This document shows, in pieces, positions 12,651-16,636 of a stretch of 33,181 bases of DNA (position 1 is its first letter; each line of letters begins with the position of its first letter). This DNA comes from Caulobacterales bacterium (lineage in GTDB: Bacteria; Pseudomonadota; Alphaproteobacteria; Caulobacterales; Caulobacteraceae): positions 1-33,181 of the forward strand of contig JACRBD010000008.1 of assembly GCA_016234625.1 (NCBI GenBank), read 5' to 3'. The notes below the pieces were generated by a model, which worked only from the letters and a program-made list of their open reading frames with translations, was not told the origin of the DNA and did no database searches. Position numbers and translations under genes: made by a program.

Positions 12651-13724
12651 ATGAAGGCCGCAGTGCTTCGCGAGGTGGGCAAGCCGCTTCAGATCGAGAA
12701 CGTCACGATCAACAAACCGGGCCCGCATGAGGTGTTGATCCGCACCAAGGCCGCCGGCGTCTGCCACTCCGACCTGCATTTCGTCGAAGGCTCCTATCCC
12801 CACCCGCTGCCCGCGGTGCTGGGGCACGAGAGCGCCGGGGTGGTCGAGCAGGTCGGATCCGAAGTGCGTACGGTGAAGGTGGGTGACCACGTGATCACCT
12901 GCCTGTCGGCCTTCTGCGGCCACTGCAATCACTGCGTCACCGGCCACATGGCCCGTTGCGTCAGTGGCGACGTCCGCCGGGGCAAGGACGACGAGCCGCG
13001 CCTGGGCAACGGCCTGAATCAGTTCCTCAACCTGTCGTCCTTCGCCGAGCAGATGCTGATCCACGAGCACGCCTGCGTGGCCATCCGCAAGGACATGCCG
13101 CTGGACCGGGCGGCCCTGATCGGCTGCTCGGTGACCACGGGCGTGGGCGCGGTGGTGCAGACTTCGAGCGTGCGCGCCGGCGAGACCGTTGCGGTCATCG
13201 GCTGCGGCGGCGTGGGCCTGGCGGCGGTTAATGGCGCGGCGATCGCCGGCGCCGGCCGGATCATCGCCATCGACATGCATCCGGGGAAGCTGAATCTGGC
13301 CAAGCACTTCGGCGCCACCGACGTGATCGACGCCAGCCAGGACGACCCGGTCAAGGCGGTCATCGAGCTGACCAAGGGCGGTGTCGACCACAGCTTCGAG
13401 GCCATCGGCCTGAAGAAGACCACCGAGCAGGCCTTCAAGATGCTGGCCCGCGGCGGCACCTGCAACGTCATCGGCATGATCCCGGTCGGCACGATGATCG
13501 AGCTGCATGGCGCCGACTTCCTCGGCGAGAAGCGCATCCAGGGCTCGCTGATGGGCTCCAACCGCTTCCCGGTCGATATGCCCCGTCTGGTGGACTTCTA
13601 CATGTCCGGCCGGCTGAAGCTCGACGAGATGATCGCCCAGCGGATCAAGCTTGAGGAGGTCAATCAGGCCTTCGACGAACTCAAGCGCGGCGAACTGGCC
13701 CGCTCTGTCATCGTCTTCGACTGA
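12651..13724 (+). CDS. Zinc-dependent alcohol dehydrogenase (medium-chain, class-III-like)
   Basis: This 357-residue medium-chain dehydrogenase oxidises alcohols with NAD and two zinc ions per subunit. Catalytic zinc ligands are Cys38, the His59-Glu60 pair (GHE) and a later Cys in LIGCSVTTGVG. Structural zinc ligands are Cys89, Cys92, Cys95 and Cys103. The nucleotide motif GCGGVG (184-189) is followed by an acidic residue in IIAIDMHP, favouring NAD over NADP. The pattern is close to the glutathione-dependent formaldehyde and Zn-dependent alcohol dehydrogenase branch, but the substrate is not certain. GGGGAG seven bases upstream supports the start. The stop TGA directly abuts the stop of the convergent regulator gene. 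Confidence 0.92.
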   Translation: MKAAVLREVGKPLQIENVTINKPGPHEVLIRTKAAGVCHSDLHFVEGSYPHPLPAVLGHESAGVVEQVGSEVRTVKVGDHVITCLSAFCGHCNHCVTGHMARCVSGDVRRGKDDEPRLGNGLNQFLNLSSFAEQMLIHEHACVAIRKDMPLDRAALIGCSVTTGVGAVVQTSSVRAGETVAVIGCGGVGLAAVNGAAIAGAGRIIAIDMHPGKLNLAKHFGATDVIDASQDDPVKAVIELTKGGVDHSFEAIGLKKTTEQAFKMLARGGTCNVIGMIPVGTMIELHGADFLGEKRIQGSLMGSNRFPVDMPRLVDFYMSGRLKLDEMIAQRIKLEEVNQAFDELKRGELARSVIVFD

Positions 13725-14189
13725 TCAGGCCGGCGGCTGGCCGCTGCTTCGCTTCATGGCGGTCGCCAGTCTGTTGAAGCTGGCGAAGCTTTCGCGGTAG
13801 GCGACGGTCATCTCGGGGGTCAGCAGGGCGTGCTCGGGGATGTAGACCCCGCGCCGCCCGTCGCGGACGCAGAGGTTCTCCGCCACCAGCATGTTCACGT
13901 AGCGGCGGGTGGTCTCGTAGGGCACGCCGATGGAATTGGCGATCGACATAACGCTCACCGGCCGTCGCTCGCCTCCGCCTCCGCCGGCGGTGGGCGAAGC
14001 TTCGCCATTGGCGACGGCGATGGCGGTGAAAATGATCCCGCGCAGGAGGTCGCCGCCGTGAGCCCGGGCGACGATTTCCACCCCACGCACAAAGAACTCG
14101 CCGGCCAGCCTGACGGCCACCGCCACGGCCAGGTCGTCGGCGGGCGCGCTCGCCGCTGGCGCTTCACCCATGCTTCGTCCAGTGGCCAA
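13725..14189 (-). CDS. Helix-turn-helix regulator, paralogue 1
   Basis: This 154-residue protein has a helical block (GGDLLRGIIFTAIAVAN, from residue 45), then a Gly-rich insert, then a winged-helix-like part: RPVSVMSIANSIGVPYETTRR (77-96), LVAENLCV and GVYIP as a wing. It is clearly paralogous to the gene at 14901-15371, sharing GGD-LRG-IFTA and IPYETTRR-N-L. I do not recognise a named family; a DNA-binding regulator is the best reading. The start is probably the TTG at 14189, because GGGGAGG lies about six bases upstream. The ATG at 14171 has only a poor site. Its end abuts the alcohol dehydrogenase stop, and its upstream region is shared with the divergent gene at 14327. Confidence 0.7.
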   Translation of the reverse strand: MATGRSMGEAPAASAPADDLAVAVAVRLAGEFFVRGVEIVARAHGGDLLRGIIFTAIAVANGEASPTAGGGGGERRPVSVMSIANSIGVPYETTRRYVNMLVAENLCVRDGRRGVYIPEHALLTPEMTVAYRESFASFNRLATAMKRSSGQPPA

Positions 14190-14238
14190 GGTCCCCCCTC
14201 CCCTTGAATCTCATCTGGTCGCTATTGACGCGCCGCCC

Positions 14239-14261
14239 TGATTCCCCATTTTGAGGAATCA
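14239..14261. promoter_or_regulatory. Palindrome with two GANTC sites between divergent genes
   Basis: TGATTCC (14239-14245) and GGAATCA (14255-14261) are a perfect seven-base dyad with nine bases between. Each arm contains a GANTC site (14240-14244 and 14256-14260), the target of the CcrM cell-cycle methylase in Caulobacterales. The dyad lies between regulator 1 (minus) and the gene at 14327 (plus). A related block, CCC-N3-TTGAGGA, occurs upstream of paralogue 2 at 15450-15464, matching 14245-14259 at 11 of 15 positions. Operator function is inferred. Confidence 0.5.
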
Positions 14262-14326
14262 AATTCCGCCTCGCCGACGCCGGCTGCCTATCCTTTCGGC
14301 AACGAAGAGAAGGCGGGAGGCGCGGA

Positions 14327-14806
14327 ATGTTGAGGCCGGCTGGTCGCATGGAGTCAGATGGGCGGGCGCCCGCCGCAGCAGCGACGGAGACACGGCGGAA
14401 ACGATCGTCCATTCGAGCAGGCGATACAGCCGACATTCTCGATTACATGGCTCAAGTGCGGCGGAAGGCAAGACGCAACGCTAACGCCGATCCGCTGGTG
14501 GCTGAAATCGTCGAGGCCCTGCTGATCCTTGGCGGCCAGGGACACAGGAACGCGGTGGCCGAGCGGATCGCTTCGGCCCGGGCCGGAGAGCCCGCGAAGC
14601 CGACCGAGGCGTTGATTGTCCACGTGCGGGCCGCTTTCGAGGAACGGCTGAAGCTGGACCGCGCGATGCGCCGACCGCGGGCCCTGTTCGACCTGCCGTT
14701 CGGGGACGGATCTCACCGATGGGCTCTGGCGCGGGAAGCAGAGAACTTCCTGCGATGGGGTCGGGGGTCGCGCCGCTCTCCGCCCTGGCGAAGACGACCC
14801 GCGTGA
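14327..14806 (+). CDS. Hypothetical protein between two paralogous regulators
   Basis: I do not recognise this 159-residue protein. Residues about 1-35 are basic and disordered-looking. The middle (DPLVAEIVEALLILGGQGHRNAVAERI and on) looks like a helical, winged-helix-type fold, followed by RALFDLPFGDGSHRWALA and a last helix AREAENFLRW. The PFG-GS-RWAL segment resembles the wing region of other bacterial DNA-binding proteins, but this is a weak impression. The C-terminal 12 residues are Arg/Pro-rich. The ATG at 14327 is supported by GGGAGG six bases upstream. It is divergent from regulator 1 and convergent with regulator 2, with a terminator hairpin after it. Confidence 0.6.
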   Translation: MLRPAGRMESDGRAPAAAATETRRKRSSIRAGDTADILDYMAQVRRKARRNANADPLVAEIVEALLILGGQGHRNAVAERIASARAGEPAKPTEALIVHVRAAFEERLKLDRAMRRPRALFDLPFGDGSHRWALAREAENFLRWGRGSRRSPPWRRRPA

Positions 14807-14858
14807 CAACCGACGACGGCGGCCGCCTGCCCCCCGACAGGGTCGCCGACGGGACGCC

Positions 14859-14884
14859 CCCTGACCCTTTCCGAGGGGTCAGGG
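14859..14884. terminator. Bidirectional terminator hairpin
   Basis: CCCTGACCC (14859-14867) and GGGTCAGGG (14876-14884) are a perfect nine-pair stem with an eight-base loop, in the gap between the convergent gene at 14327 (plus) and regulator 2 (minus). TTT occurs in the loop, not as a tail. Position favours a shared terminator. Confidence 0.6.
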
Positions 14885-14900
14885 CGCGCATCCGCCTGCC

Positions 14901-15362
14901 TCAGGCCGCGAACTCCACGCCGCCTTCGCGCAGATCCGTCATCAGACGCCGCAGGTTTTCGTAGTTGCGACGCAGGGCCGTGACCATCTGGTCCCGGCCG
15001 ATGACGGTCGCGGGCACAATGATCCCCGTCTCGGCCCGCACACAGAGGCCATCGGTGATCAAGGCGTTGATGTGCCGCCGCGTGGTTTCGTAAGGAATGT
15101 CCAGTTCGAGCGCCAGGGCGTGGACGCTGATGGGTTTGCGTAGCTCGTCCGGCACCTGGTCGCTGGCTTCCGAATAGGCCTGGGAGACGACATCGGAGGG
15201 CCGCAGATGCCGCACATTGGCATCGACGACGGCGGTGAAGATCACGCCGCGCAGGATGTCGCCGCCGACGACGCGCGACATGAGATCGACGGAGTGAAGG
15301 AAGTAGGTGGTGGACGCTCGAAGCGCCAATCGTTCATGTCGTTTGTCTGGTCTGTTCGGCAC
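14901..15362 (-). CDS. Helix-turn-helix regulator, paralogue 2
   Basis: This protein of about 153 residues has the same plan as the gene at 13725-14189: GGDILRGVIFTAVVDAN, then a variable linker, then KPISVHALALELDIPYETTRRHINALITDGLCV with the wing ETGIIVP, then a C-terminal helix of Arg/Asn/Leu residues. No named family is recognised; a winged-helix regulator is the best reading. The longest frame starts at a GTG at 15371, but GGGGA touches that codon. The next in-frame GTG, at 15362, has GGGGAG eight bases upstream and is preferred. Its promoter must lie in the AT-richer stretch 15372-15490, which contains the CCCGAATTGAGGATT block shared with paralogue 1. Confidence 0.7.
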   Translation of the reverse strand: MPNRPDKRHERLALRASTTYFLHSVDLMSRVVGGDILRGVIFTAVVDANVRHLRPSDVVSQAYSEASDQVPDELRKPISVHALALELDIPYETTRRHINALITDGLCVRAETGIIVPATVIGRDQMVTALRRNYENLRRLMTDLREGGVEFAA

Positions 15363-15490
15363 GAATTGCACTCCCCGATCCGGGCAACCCGCAGGTAACC
15401 GGAAATGGGTTTTCGCCGTTATAACCCTACTGATCCAAGGGCTAAATTACCCGAATTGAGGATTTCCCGCGCGACGTGGTGACGCAGCGC

Positions 15491-16636
15491 TTACTCGGCG
15501 GCCTGGAGGTCGGCGGCGGCCGTCTCAGCCTCGATCCGCGCCGCGTGGGCTTCGACGAGCCCGACGATGTGGTCGACCATGTGCTCGTTGTCCATCTTGT
15601 GGTCCGGTCGGCCGGTCACATAGACCATGCCCGAGCCCTTGCCGCCGCCGGTGAAGCCCAGGTCGGTCATCAGGGCTTCGCCCGGGCCGTTGACCACACA
15701 GCCGATGATCGACAGCGACAACGGGGTCGAGATATGCGCCAGCCGGGCCTCGAGAGCCTCGACGGTCTTGATCACATTGAAGCCCTGCCGGGCGCAGGAC
15801 GGGCAGGCGATGATGTTCACGCCGCGATGGCGCAGGCCCAGCGACTTGAGCAGGTCGAAGCCGACCTTGATCTCCTCTACCGGGTCGGCGGCCAGGCTGA
15901 CGCGGATCGTGTCGCCGATACCGGCCCACAGCAGGCTGCCCATGCCGATGGCCGATTTGACCGTGCCGGTGCGCAGGGCGCCGGCCTCGGTAATGCCCAG
16001 ATGCAGCGGGCAGTCGATGGCTTCGGAAAGCTGCTGATAAGCGGCCACGGTCATGAAGATGTCCGAGGCCTTCACGCTGATCTTGAAGTCGTGGAAGTCG
16101 TGGTCCTGCAGGATGCGGGCGTGGCTGAGCGCGCTCTCGACCATCGCGTCCGGGCAGGGCTCGCCGTACTTCTCCAGCAGGTCGCGCTCCAGCGAGCCGG
16201 CGTTGACGCCGATGCGCATGGAACATCCGTGGTCACGGGCGGCCTGGATGACCTCGCGGACGCGATCGGGACTGCCGATGTTGCCGGGATTGATACGCAG
16301 GCAGGCCGCGCCGGCCTTGGCGGCCTCGATGCCGCGTTTGTAGTGGAAGTGGATGTCGGCGACGATCGGGACCTTCGACTCCCGCACAATGGTCGGCAGG
16401 GCCGCGGTCGACTCCACGTCGGGGCAGGAGACCCGCACGATGTCGGCGCCGGCCTCCTCAAGTTGCCGGATCTGGTCGATGGTCGCGGCCGCGTCGGCGG
16501 TCAGCGTGTTGGTCATCGACTGGACGGTGATCGGCGCATCGCCGCCGACCGGAACGTTCCCGACATGAATCTGGCGGGACTTGCGCCGGTCGATGTGGCG
16601 CCAGGGGCGGAGATGGGTGTGGTCGTCGTGGCTCAT
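15491..16636 (-). CDS. ispG: 4-hydroxy-3-methylbut-2-enyl diphosphate synthase (flavodoxin/ferredoxin) IspG
   Basis: IspG (GcpE) reductively opens methylerythritol cyclodiphosphate to HMBPP in the MEP isoprenoid pathway, using a [4Fe-4S] cluster in the cytoplasm. The 381 residues are the normal bacterial length. The TIM-barrel part has [13 protein letters not shown] (36-48) and [13 protein letters not shown]. The cluster cysteines are Cys278 and Cys281 (CPSC) and Cys313 in GCVVNGPGE, where Glu320 supplies the additional ligand. An N-terminal His-rich leader ([12 protein letters not shown]) precedes the domain. It lies downstream of the RodZ-like gene on the same strand, 58 bp apart, a common alphaproteobacterial arrangement. 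Confidence 0.97.

Follow-up and report, generated by a model that had tools for sequence, protein, structure and literature searches.

A candidate autoregulated RtrC-type module with a shared operator and a small predicted winged-helix gene in a Caulobacteraceae genome

The locus and its two related regulators

We analyzed a stretch of 33,181 nucleotides from a Caulobacterales bacterium (contig JACRBD010000008.1), referred to below, in its whole length, as the window. In its middle part, two related regulator genes, R1 and R2, both on the minus strand, bracket a small gene, M, on the plus strand. The features that matter here are the following.

12651..13724, plus strand: zinc-type alcohol dehydrogenase (NCBIfam search), downstream of R1 and convergent with it
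13725..14189, minus strand: R1, probable RtrC-family regulator (open frame, 154 aa, TTG start)
14239..14261: dyad TGATTCC-N9-GGAATCA, an outward extension of O1 (exact match)
14242..14258: O1, the family operator of the R1–M intergenic stretch, TTCCCCATTTTGAGGAA (score 22.8)
14327..14806, plus strand: M, small protein of 159 aa with a predicted winged-helix core (relatives and structure model)
14901..15371, minus strand: R2, probable RtrC-family winged-helix regulator (open frame, 156 aa, GTG start)
15371..15387: O2b, a weaker copy of the operator, CTCCCCGATCCGGGCAA, at the R2 start and immediately upstream of it (motif scan)
15447..15463: O2, family operator TTACCCGAATTGAGGAT, upstream of R2 (score 20.2)
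15469..15487, minus strand: SpdR-like dyad CTGCGTC-N5-GTCGCGC, 24 bp from O2 on its upstream side with respect to R2 (box comparison)
15491..16636, minus strand: open reading frame upstream of R2, which we take to be ispG

An earlier note on this DNA had proposed two paralogous regulators sharing two conserved blocks, and this is borne out. R1 and R2, which are co-directional, align at 36% identity (E 2.1e-19) and both carry the blocks, GGDLLRGIIFTA and GVPYETTRR in R1, GGDILRGVIFTA and DIPYETTRR in R2. The R2 frame given there is real and lies on the minus strand, with its end corrected from 15362 to 15371. The middle gene is real as well, with relatives at 34–51% identity, and reads away from R1 and toward R2. 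The earlier note did not recognize the protein families; in our searches, neither R1, R2 nor M reached the cut-off of any Pfam or NCBIfam model, and M had no match in Pfam up to E 10 or in NCBIfam up to E 1.

R1 and R2 resemble the MarR family (MepR and others; PMC9648850) in their palindromic operators and in a predicted winged helix flanked by long helices at both termini; unlike it, they gave no match to its Pfam models (PF01047/PF12802) up to E 1. When 48 relatives were compared to Pfam at E ≤ 0.01, MarR_2 matched 13 of them and MarR 2 (best 1.2e-4), and generic helix-turn-helix models also matched (best 2.6e-6, HTH_IclR); some relatives may thus be filed under such generic models. An AlphaFold2 model of R2 residues 11–155 (mean pLDDT 93.5, pTM 0.86) has a winged-helix fold with long helices on either side. 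Its Foldseek matches among solved structures were weak, with a best E of 0.028 and none below 0.001, and the top ones included many MarR-type regulators but also methyltransferases and GntR-type proteins. We read R1 and R2 as paralogous winged-helix transcription factors of the RtrC family, probably dimeric.

Caulobacter has an expanded set of these proteins, some with a single domain and others with two domains fused, and up to 13 matched domains occur in one genome. (Below, L-numbers denote fetched loci and G-numbers genomes, G000 being the genome of the window.) A homology search found R2 relatives, several of them fused proteins of about 300–350 aa, in 30 of 61 genomes, that is 30 of the 37 of the same genus and none of the 24 of other genera. 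At E ≤ 0.001, a profile built from 48 members had matches in 102 of 299 Caulobacterales genomes, many of the matches outside the window's family lying near 1e-4 to 1e-3, where they may be generic winged helices. Part of this spread was already known, since one or two rtrC homologs have been reported in select Caulobacter species (PMC10688885). In the tree, R1 sits in a separate paralog clade (7 rows, support 100), while R2 falls outside the clade taken as RtrC (see below), in a separate clade. R2 and R1 occur together in seven of nine R2 loci, with M between them only in the window and in G025, so that the trio R1-M-R2 is not conserved as such.

A 17-bp operator upstream of the family's genes

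We fitted a palindromic motif by expectation–maximization (EM) to the 400 bases upstream of 58 family reading frames, at six widths and again at width 17. The motif found was a 17-bp operator with the core TnCCCAaatTGGGnA. At this width, its log-likelihood was 211.9, against 40.4–50.3 in four dinucleotide shuffles that had 30 restarts rather than 60, a gap that is inflated because the 58 regions include close relatives with shared ancestry. Widths of 14, 16, and 18 returned a GC-rich motif instead (log-likelihood 100–142). Sites of score ≥9 were present in 43 of 60 family upstream regions, 58 of which had served for training, and represent 35 distinct site sequences; by comparison, 19 of 1,318 control stretches had one, these being 400-bp pieces cut from those loci at a distance from any family or M gene. 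The other 17 family regions had no site of score 9, and the R2 site of L043 falls outside the stretch that was cut.

O1, which lies upstream of R1 and starts 85 bp before the M start codon, has the top score in the 673,788 bases of fetched loci scanned, all of them loci picked for family or M genes. Among the 20 best-scoring places in these loci, 19 are upstream of family genes, as read by hand from the coordinates. Second operator copies in a place similar to that of O2b are found in L038, L039, and L041. Our literature search of open-access papers found no family-wide operator for RtrC-type regulators.

The perfect dyad that the earlier note placed between R1 and M is there, exactly, at 14239–14261. 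A bare dyad of this kind is unremarkable (the window has 4 perfect dyads with 7-bp arms and a 9-base spacer, where 10 shuffles average 5.2); this one stands above chance because the family operator lies inside it. The related block CCC-N3-TTGAGGA does recur upstream of R2, occurring on the plus strand only at 14245 and 15450, and it is part of the family operator. As a conserved element the dyad holds up in its center, the TnCCCAaatTGGGnA palindrome, and not in its TGATTCC arms: the outward extension is absent from the four other R1 operators found (L035, L039, L042, and L043).

A degenerate operator pattern matched 15 sites in the whole of G000, three of them at this locus, against 13 for the reversed control, and a stricter pattern matched two sites in G001 and three in G003, against 2 and 0. 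We therefore rejected the idea that the pattern reveals a large regulon; since there is no genome-wide enrichment, the operator may be little more than an autoregulatory site. Two single matches are recorded here as side observations. TGCTCACTTTGAGCA fits the pattern at the start of a nadA-like gene in three genomes (L115, L128, and L131), presumably encoding quinolinate synthase (nadA), and this match may be coding constraint because TGCTCACTTTGAGCA also encodes a conserved MLTLS peptide. An operator-like TCCCCATTCTGAGGA lies at the beginning of a reading frame at L117:1501 (G000:C187:5900) that we take to encode an MHYT-like membrane domain, possibly a cyclic-di-GMP protein.

Relation to RtrC and SpdR

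In C. crescentus, RtrC (CCNA_00551 / CC0517) is a holdfast regulator that represses hfiA. The protein has 146 residues, no known domain and a predicted MepR-like fold, binds a pseudo-palindrome, represses its own promoter and is activated by SpdR (PMC9648850). It is largely restricted to Caulobacterales and Rhodospirillales (PMC9648850, PMC4830024). SpdR binds the CC0517 promoter at a box one position off CTGCGAC-N5-GTCGCAG (PMC4830024), and CC0517 is identified with rtrC because PMC9648850 cites PMC4830024 for SpdR binding of rtrC promoter DNA.

Only three of 463,205 positions of fetched DNA are one base off the published SpdR box, and all three lie upstream of genes of a single clade (9 rows, support 100). 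Three of its members, read over their whole length, are 146 residues long when counted from the likely start. Since these boxes and this size fit published RtrC, we infer, also from the operator and the published data, that the nine-member clade is RtrC. R2 aligns with its nine members at 33–36% identity (E 1.6e-18 to 1.6e-25). Four RtrC-clade-like loci from genomes outside the training set (L161, L162, L164, and L165) all have both operator and SpdR box, those of L162 being identical to those of its training-set relative L065; L051/L166 has a weak operator site only, and L171, RtrC-clade-like by eye, has neither element.

SpdR belongs to the ActR/PrrA/RegA type of response regulators. All seven genomes queried, G000 included, had a kinase of the ActS/PrrB kind, which we take to be the kind of SpdS, over its cut-off. 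The SpdR-like dyad of the window is degenerate, with three mismatches to the published box and two to a relaxed one; equally good dyads occurred in a fraction of 0.006 of 1,000 shuffles. With this relaxed box, which was drawn up once the sites were known and leaves one position per arm free (C/T and A/G), a match with ≤3 mismatches is found at −31/−32 from the operator in eight of nine RtrC-clade promoters, and one with ≤2 mismatches at −24/−25 in four of nine R2-clade promoters (L040, L042, L035, and the window). Elsewhere in the R2 clade, L039 has four mismatches at −24 and L044 three at −40, L038 and L041 have no SpdR-like dyad, and L043, the ninth promoter, gave no score. Among the 26 other family promoters having the operator, none has the relaxed box with ≤3 mismatches. 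Genome-wide occurrence of the SpdR pattern was discarded as evidence: the pattern is rarer than its reversed control in six of six genomes, and therefore only the position of the box was used. Judged by its sequence, the R2 promoter, with a SpdR-like dyad next to an operator, has an rtrC-like arrangement.

R1 and R2 are like RtrC in several respects: they are stand-alone single winged-helix proteins (154 and 156 aa, against about 146 aa) and have a predicted MarR-like fold and a palindromic site in their own promoter (O1 for R1 and O2 for R2). R2 may also share the SpdR box, its degenerate dyad lying close upstream of the operator. They are unlike RtrC in that they sit at another locus, with M, and in that the R1 promoter has no SpdR-like dyad. 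In the RtrC-clade loci read (L062, L065, and L070), rtrC adjoins two genes that we take to be cupin_5 and gloB. R1 and R2 are neither in the RtrC clade nor at the cupin_5/gloB locus. The cupin_5 gene was recovered in 6 of 11 genomes queried, and in G000, G005, G011, G026, and G035 there is no family gene and no LacI-type neighbor match within about 1.5 kb of it. In G019, a fused two-domain family protein (L155:498-1448, minus strand) lies beside cupin_5, in the place that rtrC has elsewhere. Since the usual rtrC place has no family gene in G000, R2 could replace RtrC, and it may stand in for rtrC in this lineage though it belongs to a separate clade. We considered as a further argument that R2 (7 genomes) and RtrC (9 genomes) never overlap; this exclusion tracks kinship and is not significant alone, and it was set aside.

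Gene M and the proposed module

M relatives are present in 12 of 61 genomes, in one of them weakly; among 299 Caulobacterales genomes, 43 have one, and these all belong to one family. The structure model of M has a winged-helix core at about residues 55–147 and is of low confidence outside it (mean pLDDT 75.8, pTM 0.60); in Foldseek it gave weak matches only, winged-helix regulators foremost. Five of the 12 M loci of the first search lie beside RtrC-family genes (the window, G025, G035, G026, and G011), and in the wider search (L172–L191) a family gene is within about 1.5 kb in 3 of 20 (the window, G035, and G270). A second-copy M locus in G140 is also near a family gene; G270 and G140 belong to another genus.

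Across 14 M promoters, with start codons chosen by hand where several were possible and with L192 and L193 fetched because M adjoins a family gene there, the highest mean operator score falls at −83 relative to the start codon. The peak persists when the window and L039 are left out (mean −0.28, against a median of −15.85 with an SD of 3.56 over positions). In seven of these promoters a site of score ≥5 lies at −87 to −79, L094 and L100 have weak sites, and five (L095–L099) have no operator in this interval. In the wider set of 21 distinct M loci, eight have a site of score ≥5, five of them at 81–85 bp from a possible M start (the window, G035, G270, G064, and G140); the sites of L181 and L182 are at 133 bp or more, and the other 13 loci have no site of score 5. 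Since many M loci lack this spacing, only some members of the M family can be linked to the operator.

Three side observations concern the DNA around M. A variant operator near GCGCCCATTTCNGGCGC lies at −81/−83 from M in L092, L093, and L094, the cassettes of G035, G026, and G011 in which M precedes a fused two-domain family member, and here site and binder may have changed together. Four M genes without the operator (L095, L096, L097, and L098) share a motif near GGTCAATGTAACGCATTGTAAAA, about 75–100 bp upstream, which suggests a second regulator. Finally, a CTTGCCTT block is shared by the window, at about 14440–14480, and the R2–R1 intergenic stretches of L035, L036, L037, and L043. We set it aside as a promoter, for it reads by hand in the M frame as an RRKA stretch, and it may be a remnant of a lost M in those four loci.

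The best competitor of a module that regulates itself is a shared master: some other regulator would bind the palindrome and control the family genes and M, with the family proteins binding elsewhere. One common binder suits an operator that is common to deeply diverged paralogs, and the unrelated motif borne by some M promoters also speaks for this reading, which we nevertheless judge unlikely. The operator follows the family's own genes (43/60 against 19/1,318), the variant site at the same place in the fused-member cassettes fits a joint change of site and binder, and RtrC, as published, regulates itself negatively, binding its own promoter and a pseudo-palindrome (PMC9648850). Less likely still is that M and R1 are a repressor/antirepressor or toxin–antitoxin-like pair of mobile origin rather than part of a regulatory cascade; both are small and adjacent, their presence is patchy and M stands beside different family members in different genomes, but the core of M is a predicted winged helix, and M is distributed across one bacterial family (43/299 genomes of the order) and is usually apart from any RtrC-family gene. 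The earlier note's idea that CcrM methylation gates binding through the cell cycle is very improbable: both arms of the window dyad do contain GANTC, as in CcrM/GANTC-controlled Caulobacter promoters, but GANTC (44 in the 33,181 bases of the window, about one every 750) is found in or within 4 bp of only 3 of 43 operator sites of score ≥9, which leaves such gating unsupported, is absent from the four other R1 operators found, and lies in the window at the operator edges, outside the conserved core.

We therefore favor, with a probability of roughly 0.7, a module of RtrC type that regulates itself, is probably linked to SpdR and has the small winged-helix gene M under the same operator. The regulatory module with a shared operator and a middle gene behind it, as first suggested, is indeed present as a sequence pattern. 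What was computed is the sequence homology, the operator with its positions, a SpdR-like dyad, the spacing to M in some M loci and a kinase of the SpdS kind; we infer that family proteins would bind the family operator, as well as the direction of regulation, the control by SpdR and the role of M. SpdR would probably switch on R2 through the dyad at 15469–15487, and R2, by analogy with RtrC, would bind O2/O2b and shut its own promoter. R1, or R1 and R2 together, would bind O1 and through this single operator control both R1 and the divergent M. M would be a downstream target and a possible partner of R1/R2. R2 may take the rtrC role in this lineage, where rtrC is absent from its usual place.

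RtrC has been published as a cryptic stand-alone factor. A broader picture, which we put forward tentatively and at somewhat less than even odds, is that Caulobacteraceae have undergone a radiation of RtrC-type regulators, with up to 13 matched domains per genome and fused forms, in which most members keep one operator and can cross-regulate, M is in part under this operator at 81–85 bp, and lineages swap the paralog that is under SpdR, moving the stationary-phase/holdfast input. If RtrC is one branch of a larger set of paralogs that have an operator in common, the binding and overexpression data published for it may reflect cross-talk. The M family, which matched neither Pfam nor NCBIfam, would gain a candidate control site, and natural Caulobacter lineages would offer a test of how SpdR input is handed from one paralog to another.
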